Shown one piece after another: positions 17,291 to 63,290 of a stretch of DNA of 64,000 bases. Source of the stretch: Panorpa germanica (taxonomy: Eukaryota > Arthropoda > Insecta > Mecoptera > Panorpidae); contig OY783207.1 of assembly GCA_963678705.1 (NCBI GenBank), positions 1,426,001 through 1,490,000 of the forward strand, written 5' to 3'. Within the stretch, counting starts at the first letter, position 1. Every line of letters begins with the position of its first letter. The notes beneath the pieces are model-generated. The model was not told the origin of the DNA and did not search any database. It saw nothing but the letters and a program-made list of their open reading frames with translations. Made by a program: the position numbers and the translations under genes.

Positions 17291-17722
17291 ATTTGAATAT
17301 TAACAAGATGCGATCATGCAATCATGATCATGCAATTTTCTATACCCCGACTTATGAAATTTTAATATTAACAAGAGTATAACCTTTGTAATTTTCAATA
17401 AGATCATACAATTTTCTGTACCCCGACTTATGAAATTTTAATATTAACAAGAGTATAACCTTTGTAATTTTCAAAAAATCATGCAATTTTCTATACCCCG
17501 ACTTATGAAATTTTAATATTAACAAGAGTATAACCTTTGTAATTTTCAATAAAATCATGCACTTTTCTATTCCCCGATTTATGAAATTTTAATATTAACA
17601 AGAGTATAACCTTTGTAATTTTCAATACGATCATACAATTTTCTGTACCCCGACTTATGAAATTTTAATTTTAACAAGAGTATAACCTTTGTAATTTTCA
17701 ATAAAATCATGCAATTTTTTTG
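17291..17722. repeat. ~76-bp satellite, five units
   Basis: The phrase '(c/t)ttatgaaattttaat' recurs at 17351, 17427, 17502, 17578 and 17654, a spacing of 75-76 bp. Each unit also has 'aagagtataacctttgtaat' and 'taccccga'. The right edge continues into 'atatgttttctaacgta'. The whole block is the reverse complement of sequence at about 32.34-32.94 kb. Confidence 0.9.
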
Positions 17723-22823: not shown

Positions 22824-25156
22824 ATAAATACAATCATCTGCAAAAGAAGTATTTCTAAGATGATGATCCAGGCGTTCCTCTCATTTCCATTTCTTGCCTA
22901 CCACGGTCCACGTGGTCGTACCCGTGGACATAACACTCTGCAGCTGTTCCATCCTCGGCTCATCCATCGTCAAGACCTGGAAGAGTGTTTGACTTGAATT
23001 TATAATTAGACTTTTTTGCAAATTATTAATCTTAATTAATTAACAGTTAAATTAGTCTTAAGTTGTATTAGTGAATGGCTCTCGTACTTGTCATTGTATT
23101 AGTTTTATAACGAGATAACTCTTATTGTAAGATTTTTGTATGATTTTTATAAAAATAAGTGGCCAGCTATGCAACGTTTTAAAAAATCGAATTTTTTCAA
23201 GTATCAATACATATTTGTGAAAATGCTACAATAATTTTAATTAATTTTAAGGTAAATTACAAGGAAAGGAATCCGATCTTGTTATTAAACAAAAGAAATT
23301 AACCTAGTTGTGCAATAAAAGGAAAAATATCATTTTAGACACTAATTTTAGCGAAAATGAATTTAATTTGACAAAATATGATGTCCCACATGTTAAATTT
23401 ATAGCATTTTTGTTTTCTATTATATATTGATTTATATTATATTGCATGTTTGTTGAGTTTAGATTTTTAAAATTTAGAAAATGTTTTTTTCTCTTGAACA
23501 AGATATATAACTCTGCTAAATACTTAAATAAGTATGAAGCTGCTCATCTCGACCTCAACAGGGTTGAATTTAGATAATATAGAAAATAAAAACCAAATAA
23601 ATCGAAGTAGAAGACCTAAAATTAGAAATAAATCTGTATACAGCAGGTCGAACAAATTTAAATCACTAATTGGAACTATCATTTGATAGTGATTAAATTA
23701 AAAATATTTAAAATGTTCGATTTGCTAAACAAGTAGATAAAAATAAAGTGAAAATAAATGCTTATGTTGATTGATACTGTAACAAGTATCTGTCCATCTA
23801 TCTTGAAGAAACTAGCTAGAAGACTACTGTCTATTAATAAGCATTTGGTTTTCGAATATACAGACAATTTTAAAACATGACCATTCATTAGTAGATTTTC
23901 AAGTATCATCGTATAAACAATCACTTCAATTGTTACTGCACAGTTCTTGTTAGTTTGTTGTGTACTTTTAATATGTAGGTGTTTCTAAAAATATAAATAC
24001 GTGAATATATGTACCGGGTAAAATATAAATAACTCAACAGTATGTTACTTTTATGTTATATTGTTTGATGAAGTTGAATTAAGATGCATTTTAACATTTA
24101 CTAAAAAAGATATTGAAAATGCAAACAGTTTATAATATTCAAGTATATCATACAACGAAATTAGATACCATTGGGTTATATTTAACGAATACTAACTAAT
24201 TAATGACGCAAAGTATAATGAGTCGTTCTAGGAATTCTATGCAGAATCAGCTAAATTACATTTTGTATTAGATGCATTCTACATTAAATATAATTGATAT
24301 AAAAATAGAACTGATTGAAATGCTGGTATGAAAATATATAGGTCTTTGGTTTGTTAAATCAATTATTGTGAAAGTAATTTGTTTTTCTTTAGAAGTGTGT
24401 TCAGCTAACATATATGATAAACCGGTACATCAATTCATTATCTGTAATCGAAAATAATAAAGTAACATAGTGTTAACGTCCAATGAAACAGATCTCAGCC
24501 GAATCGTTTCTTGACAACAGATTGTATTACACGTTGCCAAATTCGTTCACTTCCATAAATCATAATTAAAATGCATATACATAATAATATTAACACTGTA
24601 TGTTGTCTACGTCCAAAATATTCTTAATAAATGAACAATGAAGATTATACAGTTTGATTTCCTTTTGTAATCCTTTAATATTATAACTTTAAGTAGAAAA
24701 CATATTGCGAAATAATTAACTAACATTTTCTTTTAATTTGCAAATAAATTAAATAGTAGAGATACTGTAATTTAAAAATTAATTGATATACATTCATTGC
24801 ATGTTGAAAGAACTGTGTAATCTTCTTCAGTTTTAATGTAAATGTACAACCTAATACAATAGAGTTACATTTCATAATTTTATATGTTTTTAACGCAATA
24901 TTTTTACTAAGGAAGAGTAATATAAAAGTTTTATGAAATTTGTCTCATACCCCACCTCTGGTTTATAATGTAAAATCGAATTATTACAATTCGCATATCA
25001 TACATTTATTTTAATTTTAAATGATTATTGTAATAATAATTATGATTCTAGTTTACTATGTAAGCATTTATTATTTATATTATGACATTGAATAAAATAG
25101 TTTATTTGTACGTATGTGTTTTAAATTTAAATGTAATTCAGGAAACATTGAAACTA
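22824..25156. other. 3' UTR of the PPP1R14-like gene, then intergenic AT-rich DNA
   Basis: The first few hundred bases are probably 3' UTR (candidate AATAAA at 23314-23319). Beyond that I see only AT-rich sequence without gene or repeat structure. Confidence 0.4.
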
Positions 25157-25745
25157 TATTTAATTATTATTATTATTATTTAAAATTATTAATTAACCAT
25201 ATTTAATAAATAGTTAGCTTAAATCTAAACTAAGACGCCATCTGCTAAGCAATAGCTACACCAGGATAGTTCTGAATTTCTTTAAAAGAATGCGCTGCAT
25301 CAGTCGTGTAATAAACCGCCTGATCGTTATACTACTATAAATACACAAAGGTAGTTGCATTCTAAAATTAATTCTTTGCTAGAATTTAAAAGACATAGGT
25401 TTTATCAATTTCAACAAGAGTTTAATCTTCTTTAATTCAGAAAACGTTGATTCATAAAACTATATTTAATTATTACTATTATTTTTTAAAATTATTAATT
25501 AACACTATTTAATAATTATTTACCTCAAATTCAAACCAAGCTGCCATCTACTAAGCAATAGCTATAACAAGGACAGTTATGGATTTCTTTAAAAGAATGC
25601 GCTGCAGCAGTCGTATAAACCGCCTGATCGTTACACTACTATAAATACACAATTAGGTTTGCATTCTAAAATTAATACCTTGCTAGAATTAAAAATACAA
25701 AGGTTTTATCAATTTCAGCAAGAGTATAAACCTTCTTTCATTTCA
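25157..25745. repeat. Two direct copies of a ~285-bp unit
   Basis: Copy one at about 25157-25440 and copy two at about 25457-25745 share 'tttctttaaaagaatgcgct', 'ccgcctgatcgtta' and 'actactataaatacacaa'. They form the left shoulder of the palindromic element that follows. Confidence 0.85.
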
Positions 25746-25779
25746 AGGAAAAGCAGAAAATATCATGGACACTTTCTAT

Positions 25780-26870
25780 AAAAACAAAAAAAATTACATT
25801 TCTTTAAAATTCTTGATGCAGTTATGTTCGCTATGAGTTAAAAGAAAGAACTGCTTCATTACTTTTTAAATAACTCGCGTGTCTGGCTATTACGCGACTT
25901 TTTTAAAATTCATGGACTTTTTTTTCTAATTTTTTTTAAAGATACCTTGAAATATTTTGATGCAGTTATGTTCGTTAGGCTTTAAAATAAAGAACTGCTT
26001 CATTACTTTTTAAATATCTACGCGTGCCTGAGTTTTATGCAACTTTTTTGAAATCCATGGACTTTTTTTTCTAATTTTTTTTTCTTGATTCCTTGAAATA
26101 TTTTGATGCAGTTATGTTCGTTAGTCTTTAAAATAAAGAACTGCTTCATTACTTTTTAAATAACTAAGCGTGTCTGGCTTTTATGCAACTTTTTCAAAAT
26201 TCATGGACATTTTTTTTCTAAATTTTTTTTTTATTTCTTGAAATATTTTGATGCAGTTATGTTCCTTAGACTTTAAAATAAAGAACTGCTTCATTACTTT
26301 TTAAATAACTAAGTGTGTTTGGCTTTTGTGCGACTTTTTTAAAATTCATGGACTTTTTCTTCTAAATTTTTTTTTTATTTCTTGAAATATTTTGATGTAG
26401 TTACGTTCCTTAGGCTTTAAAATAAAGAACTGCTTCATTACTTTTTAAATAACTAAGTGTGTTTGGCTTTTATGCAACTTTTTCAAAATTCATGGACATT
26501 TTTTTTCTAAATTCTTTTTTTGATTTCTTGAAATATTTTGATGCAGTTATGTTCCTTAGATTTTAAAATAAAGAACTGCTTCATTACTTTTTAAATAACT
26601 AAGTGTGTTTGGCTTTTATGCGACTTTTTTTAAATTCATGGACTTTTTCTTCTAAATTTTTTTTTTATTTCTTGAAATATTTTGATGTAGTTACGTTCCT
26701 TAGGCTTTAAAATAAAGAACTGCTTCATTACTTTTTAAATAACTACGCGTGTCTGGCTTTTATGCGACTTTTTCAAAATTCATGGATATTTTTTTCTAAT
26801 TTTTTTTCTTGATTTCTTGAAATATTTTTATGCAGTTATGTTCGTTAGGCTTTAAAATAAAGAACTGTTC
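25780..26870 (+). repeat. Left arm: eight tandem ~146-bp units
   Basis: The phrase 'gatg(c/t)agtta(t/c)gttc' recurs near 25813, 25958, 26104, 26249, 26393, 26540, 26688 and 26828. Each unit also holds 'aagaactgcttcattacttt', 'cgtgtctggcttttatgc' and 'attcatggactttttt'. Units are well conserved, with homopolymer-length differences. No open frame spans them. Confidence 0.95.
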
Positions 26871-26929
26871 AATTTAAATTGAAATATTTGTCCTTTACTG
26901 GCTTTAGAGTAAACAATAAAAAAGTAAAA

Positions 26930-27350
26930 ATAAATATTTTAAAACGCTGTTTATTCGAAAACTGTAAGAGATAATTAAAAATGGTTTTCAATTTTGGAAT
27001 CAGCATAAAAAACTACGTTAGAAAACATATATCATGTGCCAATATAGAAAAAGTCTTTTTTGAGAAAAGTAAGAAGAGTTATAGTCTTCTTACTTTTCTT
27101 AAAAATTGATGAAAAAAATTTGTTGATTTTTTAATGGTTTTTAATGTAGTTTTGAATGCTGATTTCAAATCTGGAATTCATTTTGATGTAAGTCTTTTGG
27201 TTTGAGAGATATAAGCATTTTAAATTAAAAAATAGTCAAAAACTTTACACACAGATTATTCGAAAACTATAACAGATAATTAAAAATGGTTTTCAATTTT
27301 GGAATCAGCATAAAAAACTACGTTAGAAAACACAAATCATTTTTCAAAAA
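26930..27350. repeat. Dyad-rich centre of the palindromic element
   Basis: Holds two direct copies of 'ggttttcaattttggaatca' followed by 'aaactacgttagaaaaca' (26981-27028 and 27287-27334). Between them is an oppositely oriented relative ('gctgatttcaaatctg', near 27160). A short hairpin 'aaaagtaagaagagttatag' / 'tcttcttacttttc' lies at 27064-27100. Confidence 0.8.
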
Positions 27351-27384
27351 TATAAATATTTTAGTTTTAGGAAAAAAGGTCCAT

Positions 27385-28170
27385 GAATTTAAAAAAGGTC
27401 GCTTAAAAGCCAGATACGCGTAGATATTTAAAAAGTAATGAAGCAGTTCTTTATCTTAAAGCCTAAGGAACATAACTGCATCAAAATATTTCAAAGAATC
27501 AAGAAAAAAAAATTTAGAAAAAAAAGTCCATGAATTTTAAAGAAGTTGCATAAAAGCCAGACACGCTTAGTTATTTAAAAAGTAATGAAGCAGTTCTTTA
27601 TTTTAAAGCCTAACGAACGTGACTGCATCAAAATATTTCAAGAAATCAAGAAAAAAATTTAGAAAAAGAAGTCCATGAATTTTAAAAAAGTCGCGTAAAA
27701 GTCAGACACGCTTAGTTATTTAAAAAGTAATGAAGCAGTTCTTTATTTTAAAGCCTAACGAACGTAACTGCATCAAAATATTTCAAGAAATCAAGAAAAA
27801 AAATTTAGAAAATGAAGTCCATGAATTTTAAAAAAGTCGCGTAAAAGTCAGACACGCTTAGGTATTTAAAAAGTAATGAAGCAGTTATTTATTTTAAAAC
27901 CTAACGAACATAACTGCATCAAAATATTTCAAGAAATCGAAAATAAAAAATTATAAAAAAAGTCCATGAATTTTAAAAAAATTGCATAAAAGCCAGACAC
28001 GCGTAAGTATTTAAAAAGTAATGAAGCAGTTCTTTATTTTAAAGCCTAACGACCATAACTGCATCAAAATATTTCATGGAATCAAAAAAAAGTTTTTAGA
28101 AAAAAAGTCCATGAACTTTAAAAAAGTTGCATAAAAGCCAGATGCGCGTAGATATTTTAAATTTAATGAA
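27385..28170 (-). repeat. Right arm: five inverted ~146-bp units
   Basis: The reverse complement of the left-arm unit. 'aac(a/g)taactgcatcaaaat' recurs near 27470, 27617, 27764, 27910 and 28054. Together with the left arm it forms an inverted repeat of several hundred bp around the centre. Confidence 0.95.
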
Positions 28171-28272
28171 ACAGTTTATCAATTTAATCTGCAGCGTATA
28201 TATCTCAATTAAAAAAGTACCCCATCTAAATTAAATATATATTATTAGAAAAAATCAAGCATATAACTCACG

Positions 28273-28304
28273 CTCGTTGTCTTGCAACGAGTCGAACAGC
28301 TAGT
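28273..28304 (+). mobile_element. Helitron-like 3' terminus
   Basis: A perfect 7-bp hairpin, CTCGTTG-TCTTG-CAACGAG (28273-28291), then an 8-nt spacer TCGAACAG and CTAG followed by T (28300-28304). Helitrons end in a GC-rich hairpin a few nucleotides before CTRR and insert between A and T. The motif '(A)ACAGCTAGT' is familiar from lepidopteran non-autonomous Helitrons. It gives the palindromic array to its left a plausible right boundary. Confidence 0.7.
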
Positions 28305-34321: not shown

Positions 34322-36399
34322 TTACAATTCATCTTTCTTAAGATCTTCTTCATCTTCTCCTCCTGCTGGTGGTGGGGCACCCCCTGTACCTTGGTATAGT
34401 TTGGCGATGATAGGTTGTACAACATCTTCCAGTTCTTTCTTCTGTTTTTTGTATTCTTCAGCATCAGTATCTTGATTTTCTTCTAACCATTTGATCTTGG
34501 CATCGATGGCTTCTTCCATCTTTGCTTTGTCATCATCAGTAACCTTGGCACCAAGTTTCTCCTTATCTCCTAATTGATTCTTTAGCGAGTACGCGTAAGA
34601 TTCTAGCTCGTTACGTGATTCAACGCGTTCCTTCAATTTCTTGTCGTCATCTGCGAATTTCTCAGCGTCCTTAATCATACGTTCGATATCATCAGGAGTA
34701 AGGCGATTCTGGTCATTGGTAATAACAATCTTTTCACGGTTTCCGGTTCCTTTATCTTCAGCAGATACTTGTAAGATACCATTAGCATCGATTTCGAATG
34801 TAACTTCAATTTGTGGCATTCCGCGAGGTGCTGGTGGGATTCCGGTGAGGTCGAATTTGCCCAGCATGTGATTGTCTTTGGTCATGGGGCGTTCTCCTTC
34901 GTAAACCTGAATGGTGACAGTTTGTTGGTTGTCTGATGCTGTAGAGAAGATCTGTGACTTCTTGGTTGGGATGACGGTGTTACGTGGAATCAACTTAGTC
35001 ATAACTCCTCCAACTGTTTCAATTCCCATGGTCAAAGGATTCACATCAAGTAAGACAATGGCATCAGTATCTTGTTCGCCTGAGAGAACACCAGCTTGAA
35101 CAGCTGCTCCGTATGCCACAGCTTCATCGGGGTTGATGCCACGGGATGGTTCCTTGCCGTTGAAGAATTCCTTAACGAGTTGTTGTACCTTGGGGATACG
35201 TGTGGATCCTCCAACAAGAACGATTTCATCAACGTCTTTCTTATTCATATCAGCATCCTCGAGTACCTTCTGTACGGGCTTCATGGTGGACCTGAACAAA
35301 TCCATGTTCAATTCCTCGAATTTGGCTCTGGTTAAAGTCTCTGAGAAGTCATCTCCCTCGAAGAAAGATTCGATTTCAATACGGACTTGATGAGAAGCGG
35401 ACAAGGCTCTCTTTGCTTTCTCGACTTCACGACGTAGTTTCTGTACAGCACGGTTGTCTTTGCGGATGTCCTTGCCCTTCTTCTTCTTGTACAGTTTAAT
35501 GAAATGATCCATAACCCTCTGATCGAAATCTTCACCTCCCAAATGAGTGTCTCCGTTTGTTGCAACAACTTCAAAGACTCCATTGTCGATTGTAAGGAGA
35601 GATACATCGAAAGTACCGCCACCAAGATCGAAAACTAACACGTTCTTTTCGCCGTCCTTCTTGTCTAATCCATAAGCAATAGCTGCGGCAGTAGGTTCGT
35701 TAATAATGCGCATGACATTCAAACCGGAAATAACTCCAGCATCCTTAGTAGCTTGACGTTGGGCGTCGTTGAAGTAGGCAGGAACTGTAACTACAGCATG
35801 TGTGACCTTCTTTCCCAAGTAAGCTTCAGCTGTTTCCTTCATTTTTCCTAGAACCATGGCGGAGATTTCTTCTGGAGCAAATACCTTATCACCTTGACCG
35901 GTAGCGACCTTGATGTGGGGTTTGGTGTTCTTTTCAATAACTTTGAAAGGGAAGAATTTAATATCATGTTGAACAGCGCTATCGGTCCATTCTCTGCCAA
36001 TAAGACGCTTGGCATCGAATACTGTGTTTTCTGGATTTGTGGTCAATTGATTCTTGGCGGCATCACCGATCAGACGCTCTCCTTCTGCGGTGAATGCAAC
36101 ATAGGATGGAGTTATGCGGTTACCTTGGTCGTTGGCGATGATTTCCACTCTTCCATTCTTGTAAACACCAACACTGTAAATAAAATGAACGTTAAATATA
36201 TATAGTCTGGACAATTAAATTATTTAAAACTGACGACCTTAGAAAACGTGAAATAATGTTATATTACTTACCATGAATATGTCGTTCCCAAATCAATTCC
36301 TACAACGGTTCCTATGTCCTTATCTTTTTCTTTTTTGTCTTCAGATGCTGAAGACAGCGCTAAAAGCGCTACAGCTGCTAACCAAACACAGAGCCGCAT
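34322..36399 (-). CDS. HSPA5: Endoplasmic reticulum chaperone BiP/GRP78
   Basis: Two coding exons: 36399-36272 and 36173-34322 (donor ATG|gtaagt, acceptor ttacag), 659 aa. An ER-lumen Hsp70 that binds unfolded secretory proteins, using ATP hydrolysis to drive binding and release. Signal peptide residues 1-18 ([18 protein letters not shown]), then an acidic/lysine stretch, the ATPase start [17 protein letters not shown] (the intron splits codon Cys43), phosphate loop [14 protein letters not shown], adenosine motif [11 protein letters not shown], the conserved linker [16 protein letters not shown], the substrate-binding domain and helical lid, and C-terminal retention signal KDEL. Length and sequence are those of insect BiP (Drosophila Hsc70-3). 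Start: the ATG directly follows an acceptor (tttcag-A-ATG), so a non-coding first exon lies upstream. Codon use is GC-richer than in neighbouring genes, as expected for a highly expressed gene. Confidence 0.98.
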
Positions 36400-62861: not shown

Positions 62862-63290
62862 CAATTTTTTTATTTTAGAGTTTGTGGCGATGCCAGAAGT
62901 TAATTTATTTTAATTAAATTTGGTTTATTATATTTATATCATTAAGGAATTCCAGCACTTTTTGAATTTTTTCTGTATTGTCTGAAAGTATGTTCTTAAG
63001 TTCACCACTGATGTTGTGTTTTGTTCTTTGCGTTTGATATTGTGGGCAGGTTACTAGTAGATGATGGACTGTTATTTGCGTCTGACAGTTGCTGCACTGC
63101 GGAGCTGATGTTGACCCAATTTTACTGATTAGATGTTGATGCGTCAATGTCGTATGTCCTGTTCTTAGTCTGAAGATGATTTTTTTGAATTGTCTATTGC
63201 TTTGATAAGAAGTTTCCCACTTGTTTGTATTTTCCTTAACTAATCTCAATTTGTTGTTACTCATTTGCGTCCAGCACTGGTTTTAAATTT
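62862..63290 (-). pseudogene. I-clade-like LINE C-terminal fragment
   Basis: The frame 63264-62914 continues upstream in frame (…WTQMSNNKLRLVKENTNKW). It has FRLRTGHTTLTHQHLISK, then C-x2-C...H-x4-C (CSNCQTQITVHHLLVTC): the post-RNase H zinc motif of I-type and related non-LTR elements. A short 3' UTR ('ctggcatcgccacaaactct') and an A-rich end near 62862 follow. It is 5'-truncated and lacks the RT and RNase H cores. Confidence 0.75.

Follow-up and report, generated by a model that had tools for sequence, protein, structure and literature searches.

A palindromic tandem array in Panorpa germanica probably sits at the donor site of a family of non-autonomous Helitrons with a foldback design

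What kind of sequence is a tandem array that runs in two opposite directions around a hairpin-bearing centre and closes on a Helitron-like terminus, and how did it come to be where it is? The array considered here lies in a stretch of 64,000 nucleotides from Panorpa germanica, the whole of which we call the window (C4:1426001-1490000), and searches were run on the 464-Mb genome, in 249 contigs, to which the window belongs. We conclude that this copy probably occupies the donor site of a family of non-autonomous Helitrons with foldback architecture. The array stands between a shoulder (SH) and a genuine Helitron 3' end (RE), and its close relatives are dispersed, some of them as complete elements of the form A|TC...CTAG|T. 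The features are listed in Table 1.

Table 1 Features of the array and of its left side, in positions of the window
Feature	Position	Strand	Basis
Left flank, single copy; its last base is the A before the empty A|T step	23700..24290		1 match from 1 candidate genome-wide
LF segment, carried along in composites	24291..25133	+	Matches in other copies
Shoulder SH, 304-bp tandem duplication	25134..25757	+	Present in 13/20 fetched loci, short satellite-like fragments excluded
Left arm, about 8 units of 145 bp	25758..26905	+	TRF, 25798-26871, 7.4 units
Centre, 305-bp unit and part of a second; degenerate palindrome	26906..27365 (approx.)		Direct repeat, self-complementarity
Central hairpin, 15-bp perfect stem (longer in the fold), axis 27081	27063..27099		Folding
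Right arm, 5.6 inverted units	27366..28176	-	Repeat and inverted-pair analysis, fetched copies
Helitron-type 3' region RE, terminal CTAG	28177..28303	+	22/22 scored ends, genome pattern
Terminal hairpin CTCGTTG-TCTTG-CAACGAG	28273..28291	+	Stem pattern, folding
T of the A|T target	28304	+	22/22 right ends

The left array (25798-26871) repeats with a period of 144-146 bp and also with a dimer period of 290 bp. The longest inverted pair in the array measures 500 nt at 90% complementarity, and the longest exact inverted match within 25157-28304 is 66 nt, compared with at most 24 nt (mean 15.2) in 100 dinucleotide shuffles. The opposed arms described in the original prediction are real, with 7.4 units of about 145 bp facing 5.6 inverted ones across a centre that bears a hairpin. 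The duplicated left shoulder is also present, at 304 bp and not the 285 bp first given, and a centre does lie between the arms, with a length nearer 460 than 420 bp. The left limit of 25157 was too short, as the segment common to other copies begins at 24291, whereas the right end had been placed correctly, as a hairpin with CTAG and then T at 28273-28304. Elsewhere in the window, at 17327-17718, a 76-bp unit (motif AACAAGAGTATAACCTTTGTAATTTTCAATAAA) is repeated 5.2 times at 93% matches, and this array resembles the end of the shoulder when compared by eye. The neighbourhood also includes a minus-strand gene (34322-36214) for an HSP70 that ends in KDEL, a chaperone of the BiP kind, and a reverse-transcriptase zinc-finger fragment on the same strand (62914-63282) that scores under the Pfam cut-off.

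Within the centre, a 117-bp direct repeat has copies 305 bp apart at 85% identity. The centre is complementary to itself at 73% over 392 columns, with a score of 224 against a maximum of 196 among 100 random sequences of similar dinucleotide composition, and none of 200 shuffles folds as well as the central hairpin (z -5.8). The centre unit is repeated in L023-L028, and its orientation is the usual one in 14 of the 15 copies that could be oriented, the flipped one being L020. The mirror-image arms would stem from fold-back copying about the centre hairpin, which would then be a relic of that event. A satellite-like repeat with the motif GAAGACTATAATCTTGTTAAAAA holds or adjoins five of the copies (L019, L023, L025, L027 and L028), and the centre hairpin, GAAGAGTTATAGTCTTC, resembles the core of this repeat by eye.

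A genome search with two units returned at least 304 matches (40 scored of 1213 candidates), and a search with the centre at least 148 (40 scored of 1158 candidates), among them older relatives whose centres are less similar. We fetched 20 loci of 10 kb, those heading the centre match list. All 20, not all of them independent, have units in both senses around a centre, and the number of units per arm ranges from 4 to 16 (21 copies). The order SH-arm-centre-inverted arm-RE is as in the window in 12 of the fetched loci. Departures from it are of several kinds. L022 and L023 read arm-centre-arm-RE without SH, and in L022 the left part may lie beyond the fetched stretch, an LF piece sitting further upstream. 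L026 and L027 are without RE, and the array of L009 is not joined to one. RE stands on both sides in L011, L012 and L018, and SH on both sides in L026.

Long inverted repeats are error-prone in assemblies, and the two-way structure might therefore be an assembly artefact. We reject this as scarcely credible, given that the 21 loci differ in unit number and, for the most part, in their flanks, and that the arms of the palindromic L026 are 98.4% alike and not identical. The recurrence of the inverted array in every fetched locus, with unit numbers that differ, indicates that it is genuine, as originally predicted. One of the fetched loci, L009 (C4:1335001-1345000), lies about 113 kb from the window and has a centre 99% alike, with arms but neither shoulder nor attached end; close by is a relative of the window RE and right flank (78%) with no units before it.

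At the right end of the window copy, the hairpin (28273-28291) is followed by TCGAACAG and by CTAG at 28300-28303, with 8 nt from hairpin to CTAG. Taken alone, this hairpin is unremarkable: 8 of 200 shuffles fold equally well (z -1.8), and its stem pattern, when up to 3 mismatches are allowed, has 2 matches in the window against 0.8 expected. The reality of the right end rests on the other copies. Scoring was confined to RE matches that reach the end with more than 60 bits, which left 22 ends from 18 loci, counting that of the window. All 22 read CTAG and then T, in at least 15 different flanks; six ends on C19 (L011, L012 twice, L018 twice and L024) have one common flank and are not independent, and the flanks at the RE ends of L023 and L025 are similar. 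A weaker RE match in L009, below the 60-bit filter, likewise reads CTAG then T, and a related RE type accounts for one end each in L011 and L017. Genome-wide, the 32-base end pattern has 61 matches and its reversed control 0. The Helitron-type terminus proposed from the window is thus upheld by the same hairpin and CTAG before T across copies, and copies that end at differing points, named in advance as the refuting observation, were not seen in the scored set.

These results also bear on the idea that the array is an ordinary dispersed satellite or a segmental palindrome that carries a CTAG end by chance. Several copies do sit within satellite or duplicated segments, on C15 and C19. Against it, the scored ends all stop at the same base before T in many different flanks, the end pattern is absent from the control, and complete A|TC...CTAG|T copies exist; we reject this explanation as extremely improbable.

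The complete copies are defined by exact TC[CT]TATATTATAATG starts with A before them, which open the element in 4 of the 20 fetched loci. The resulting A|TC...CTAG|T elements measure 6599 bp (L010), 4105 bp (L014), 7134 bp (L020) and 4132 bp (L028), and a 5' TC end shared between copies, as foreseen, is present in these four. None of the four has a target-site duplication (no flank repeat of 2-10 bases). Empty sites split A|T had been named as a further check: compared with the fetched sequence, the four joined flanks gave no clean one, apart from a related repeat copy (89.5%) next to L028 that likewise has A|T at the corresponding place.

In the other 16 fetched loci no exact 5' end opens the element within the fetched stretch, so their status as Helitrons rests on the right end. 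Their left edges vary and are without TC, and may stem from 5' loss on insertion or from subsequent deletion. The edges of L019, L025 and L026, together with an internal junction of L014, all fall within 25296-25306, L025 and L026 having the same flank. For the window copy, no 5' TC end was recognised by pattern or by local alignment of three 5' ends, the best alignment scores being matched by 171, 150 and 115 of 300 random sequences with similar dinucleotide composition. L017 also holds a small relative, some 464 bp long, which begins with TCCTATATTATAATG, has unit-like sequence inside and ends in the related RE type. In L013, L016 and L017 a further Helitron 5' end, whole or in part, abuts or nearly abuts the right end of the composite (in L017 as CTAG|TCCTATATTATAATG), as if the 5' ends of older Helitrons were favoured as targets.

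We compared the units of the two arms in 21 copies. Unit identity between arms (0.88-0.94) is about the same as that within arms, and an identical unit occurs in both arms in 10 of the 21. The right-arm unit that adjoins the centre is distinct, with 0.98 identity to its counterparts and 0.88 to other units (12 loci; nine copies excluded). The arms would gain and lose units and trade sequence through unequal exchange and conversion, both inside one arm and from one arm to the other, and the same processes would also flip the centre and make inverted chromosomal duplications. In L026 and L012 the mirror symmetry extends into the flanking DNA (98.4% and 97.6%, respectively), and these loci are therefore inverted duplications of chromosome segments and not element ends. 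L011 seems to consist of two joined elements of different age: divergence is greater in its left half (units 74-84%), which has the related RE type at its end. The inverted arms provide a natural system in which a mobile element can be followed as its arms exchange sequence, its centre inverts and palindromes form.

Inverted arms are also what a cut-and-paste foldback element of the FB, Galileo or Tetris kind would have as its terminal repeats. Arms built of tandem subunits in variable number are described for Tetris in the available text of PMC4079207, and the loci with RE or SH on both sides (L011, L012, L018 and L026) would suit such an element. In the complete copies, however, the arms stop short of the ends, the ends are unlike each other (TC and hairpin with CTAG), and the absence of target-site duplications is uniform, while the palindromes of L012 and L026 run on into the flanks, as segment duplications do. 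A foldback transposon of this type is very improbable, and we reject it. A different role for the arms is that the centre hairpin folds back while the rolling circle is being replicated, and that the element is thereby copied both ways and is partly a foldback amplifier. We consider this quite unlikely. If it were true, the process could also give rise to elements that bear one and the same end left and right, and could start palindromes in the chromosomes, and the arms would not be passive cargo.

The case for a donor site comes from the left side of the array. LF (24291-25133) was found at 14 places (14 of 14 candidates scored). Apart from the window, it starts exactly at 24291 in seven of these and later in six. 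Between the window and six copies LF is 98.0-99.4% identical, and among those six 98.6-99.7% (gaps excluded). The DNA to the left of LF in the window (23700-24290) is single copy in a search that skips very common words. At 24290/24291 the window reads ...ATTAAATA|TAATTGAT, and five fetched copies at 24291 read ...GGGGGTAAAAGCTAG|TAATTGAT. The sequence that precedes LF in those five, H0, is another Helitron 3' end, GTCGCTTGCGACGGGGGTAAAAGCTAG, whose last G directly precedes 24291 in L010, L013, L014, L015 and L020; the junction was read in 5 of 5 fetched copies, of the seven known to begin at 24291, the other two being at C15:7573725 and C21:46254360. In these five copies the H0 end sits exactly at an A|T step that H0 does not occupy in the window. 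Since L013 has a second H0 end before different DNA, H0 seems to be an independent terminus. Dispersed copies with a preserved left part are composites with a second Helitron, which the original prediction did not foresee, and neither did it foresee the variable left edges or a window copy without a recognisable 5' TC.

Bypass of the 3' end is a leading model of flanking-DNA capture by Helitrons in the text available from PMC4778049 and PMC6544945, and for Helraiser the former documents both an essential 5' end and bypass of the 3' end. On the donor-site reading, H0 would have inserted at 24290/24291 in the window locus, or in one of its alleles or close copies. A rolling-circle event begun at the 5' TC of H0 would have ignored the H0 hairpin, passed through LF, the shoulder and the arms, and stopped at the hairpin and CTAG of the array itself. 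The composite would then have multiplied by means of autonomous Helitrons, with many copies losing their 5' part. The H0 end retains its hairpin, unlike the natural bypass exemplar of Helraiser, which had lost its 3' palindrome according to the available part of PMC4778049, and this counts against read-through.

A competing account is that an H0 element and an array element were united by recombination or repair with no read-through, the window being an H0-free relative. The H0 parts of L010 and L014 diverge from the others, at 92% and 84-85% identity to L020, and H0 pieces have therefore been exchanged or are of mixed origin; the difference between L010 and L020 in particular indicates that exchange between Helitrons happens, as this account needs. 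It would also agree with the comparison of centres (305-bp unit), in which the window and L009 have a mean identity of 96.6% to the other 19, those 19 are 98.7% identical to one another, and the window and L009 group together at 99.0%. Judged by this centre identity, the mobile copies have nearer relatives than the window, and the direct donor may therefore be an allele or a lost sister copy. On the other side stands the position of the junction, exactly at the CTAG of H0, with an intact A|T step in the window beside single-copy DNA. Random joining does not predict so exact a junction, which for this reason favours insertion followed by read-through, and we judge the recombination account unlikely. 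We therefore retain the window copy as the probable donor-site copy, in the sense of the locus or a close counterpart of it. Because the window combines an unoccupied A|T site and LF beside single-copy DNA with composites that start at that point, the bypass model becomes testable in one genome.

As for the enzyme source, Rep domains (PF14214) are abundant in the genome, with 893 candidates, of which 150 were scored and all 150 exceeded the cut-off. The open frames reach 1489 aa. This abundance, with many of the Rep domains in 1119-aa frames of equal score, looks like a recent Helitron burst; the domains lie on C1, C2, C5 and other contigs. None of the 150 scored Rep matches (of 893) lies near any of the 61 ends, with positions compared by eye, and accordingly no autonomous element with an RE-type 3' end was found among them. 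A comparison of 20 fetched Rep loci with the blocks of the elements yielded only two H0-like fragments (in L032 and L039).

The literature searched for comparable elements includes PMC4778049, PMC6544945, PMC4079207, PMC7492417, PMC5139131 and PMC4067079, each represented by part of its text, with few subscription journals. A palindromic or foldback Helitron is absent from it, which is weak evidence of absence. The suggestion of an undescribed element holds, within that body of partial texts, for the architecture; the kind of element, a repeat-carrying non-autonomous Helitron, is known. The parts are likewise known, and their combination is new to the same literature, with the same weakness of an argument from absence.

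Of the known systems, Tetris has terminal inverted repeats and its complete copies have target-site duplications (available text of PMC4079207), neither of which is found here. HINE/DINE-1 elements, which are Helentron-derived, are closer in composition: they are non-coding, with central tandem repeats, a 3' hairpin and satellite-like arrays (parts of PMC4067079 and PMC7492417). According to the same portions of those papers they bear subterminal inverted repeats and favour TT or T-rich sites. Here the site is A|T in all four complete copies, the end is CTAG and the array runs two ways; a two-way array is not mentioned in those portions. With the non-autonomous Helitrons of HLE1, the Helibat/Helraiser kind, the elements described here have in common the 5' TC, the short 3' hairpin ahead of a CTRR end, here CTAG, the A|T target, the lack of a target-site duplication and probably capture by 3'-end bypass, as far as the available text of PMC4778049 describes them. 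In contrast to those Helitrons, the internal tandem array here lies in two opposed arms about a hairpin centre, and the bypass would end at a second genuine Helitron terminus.
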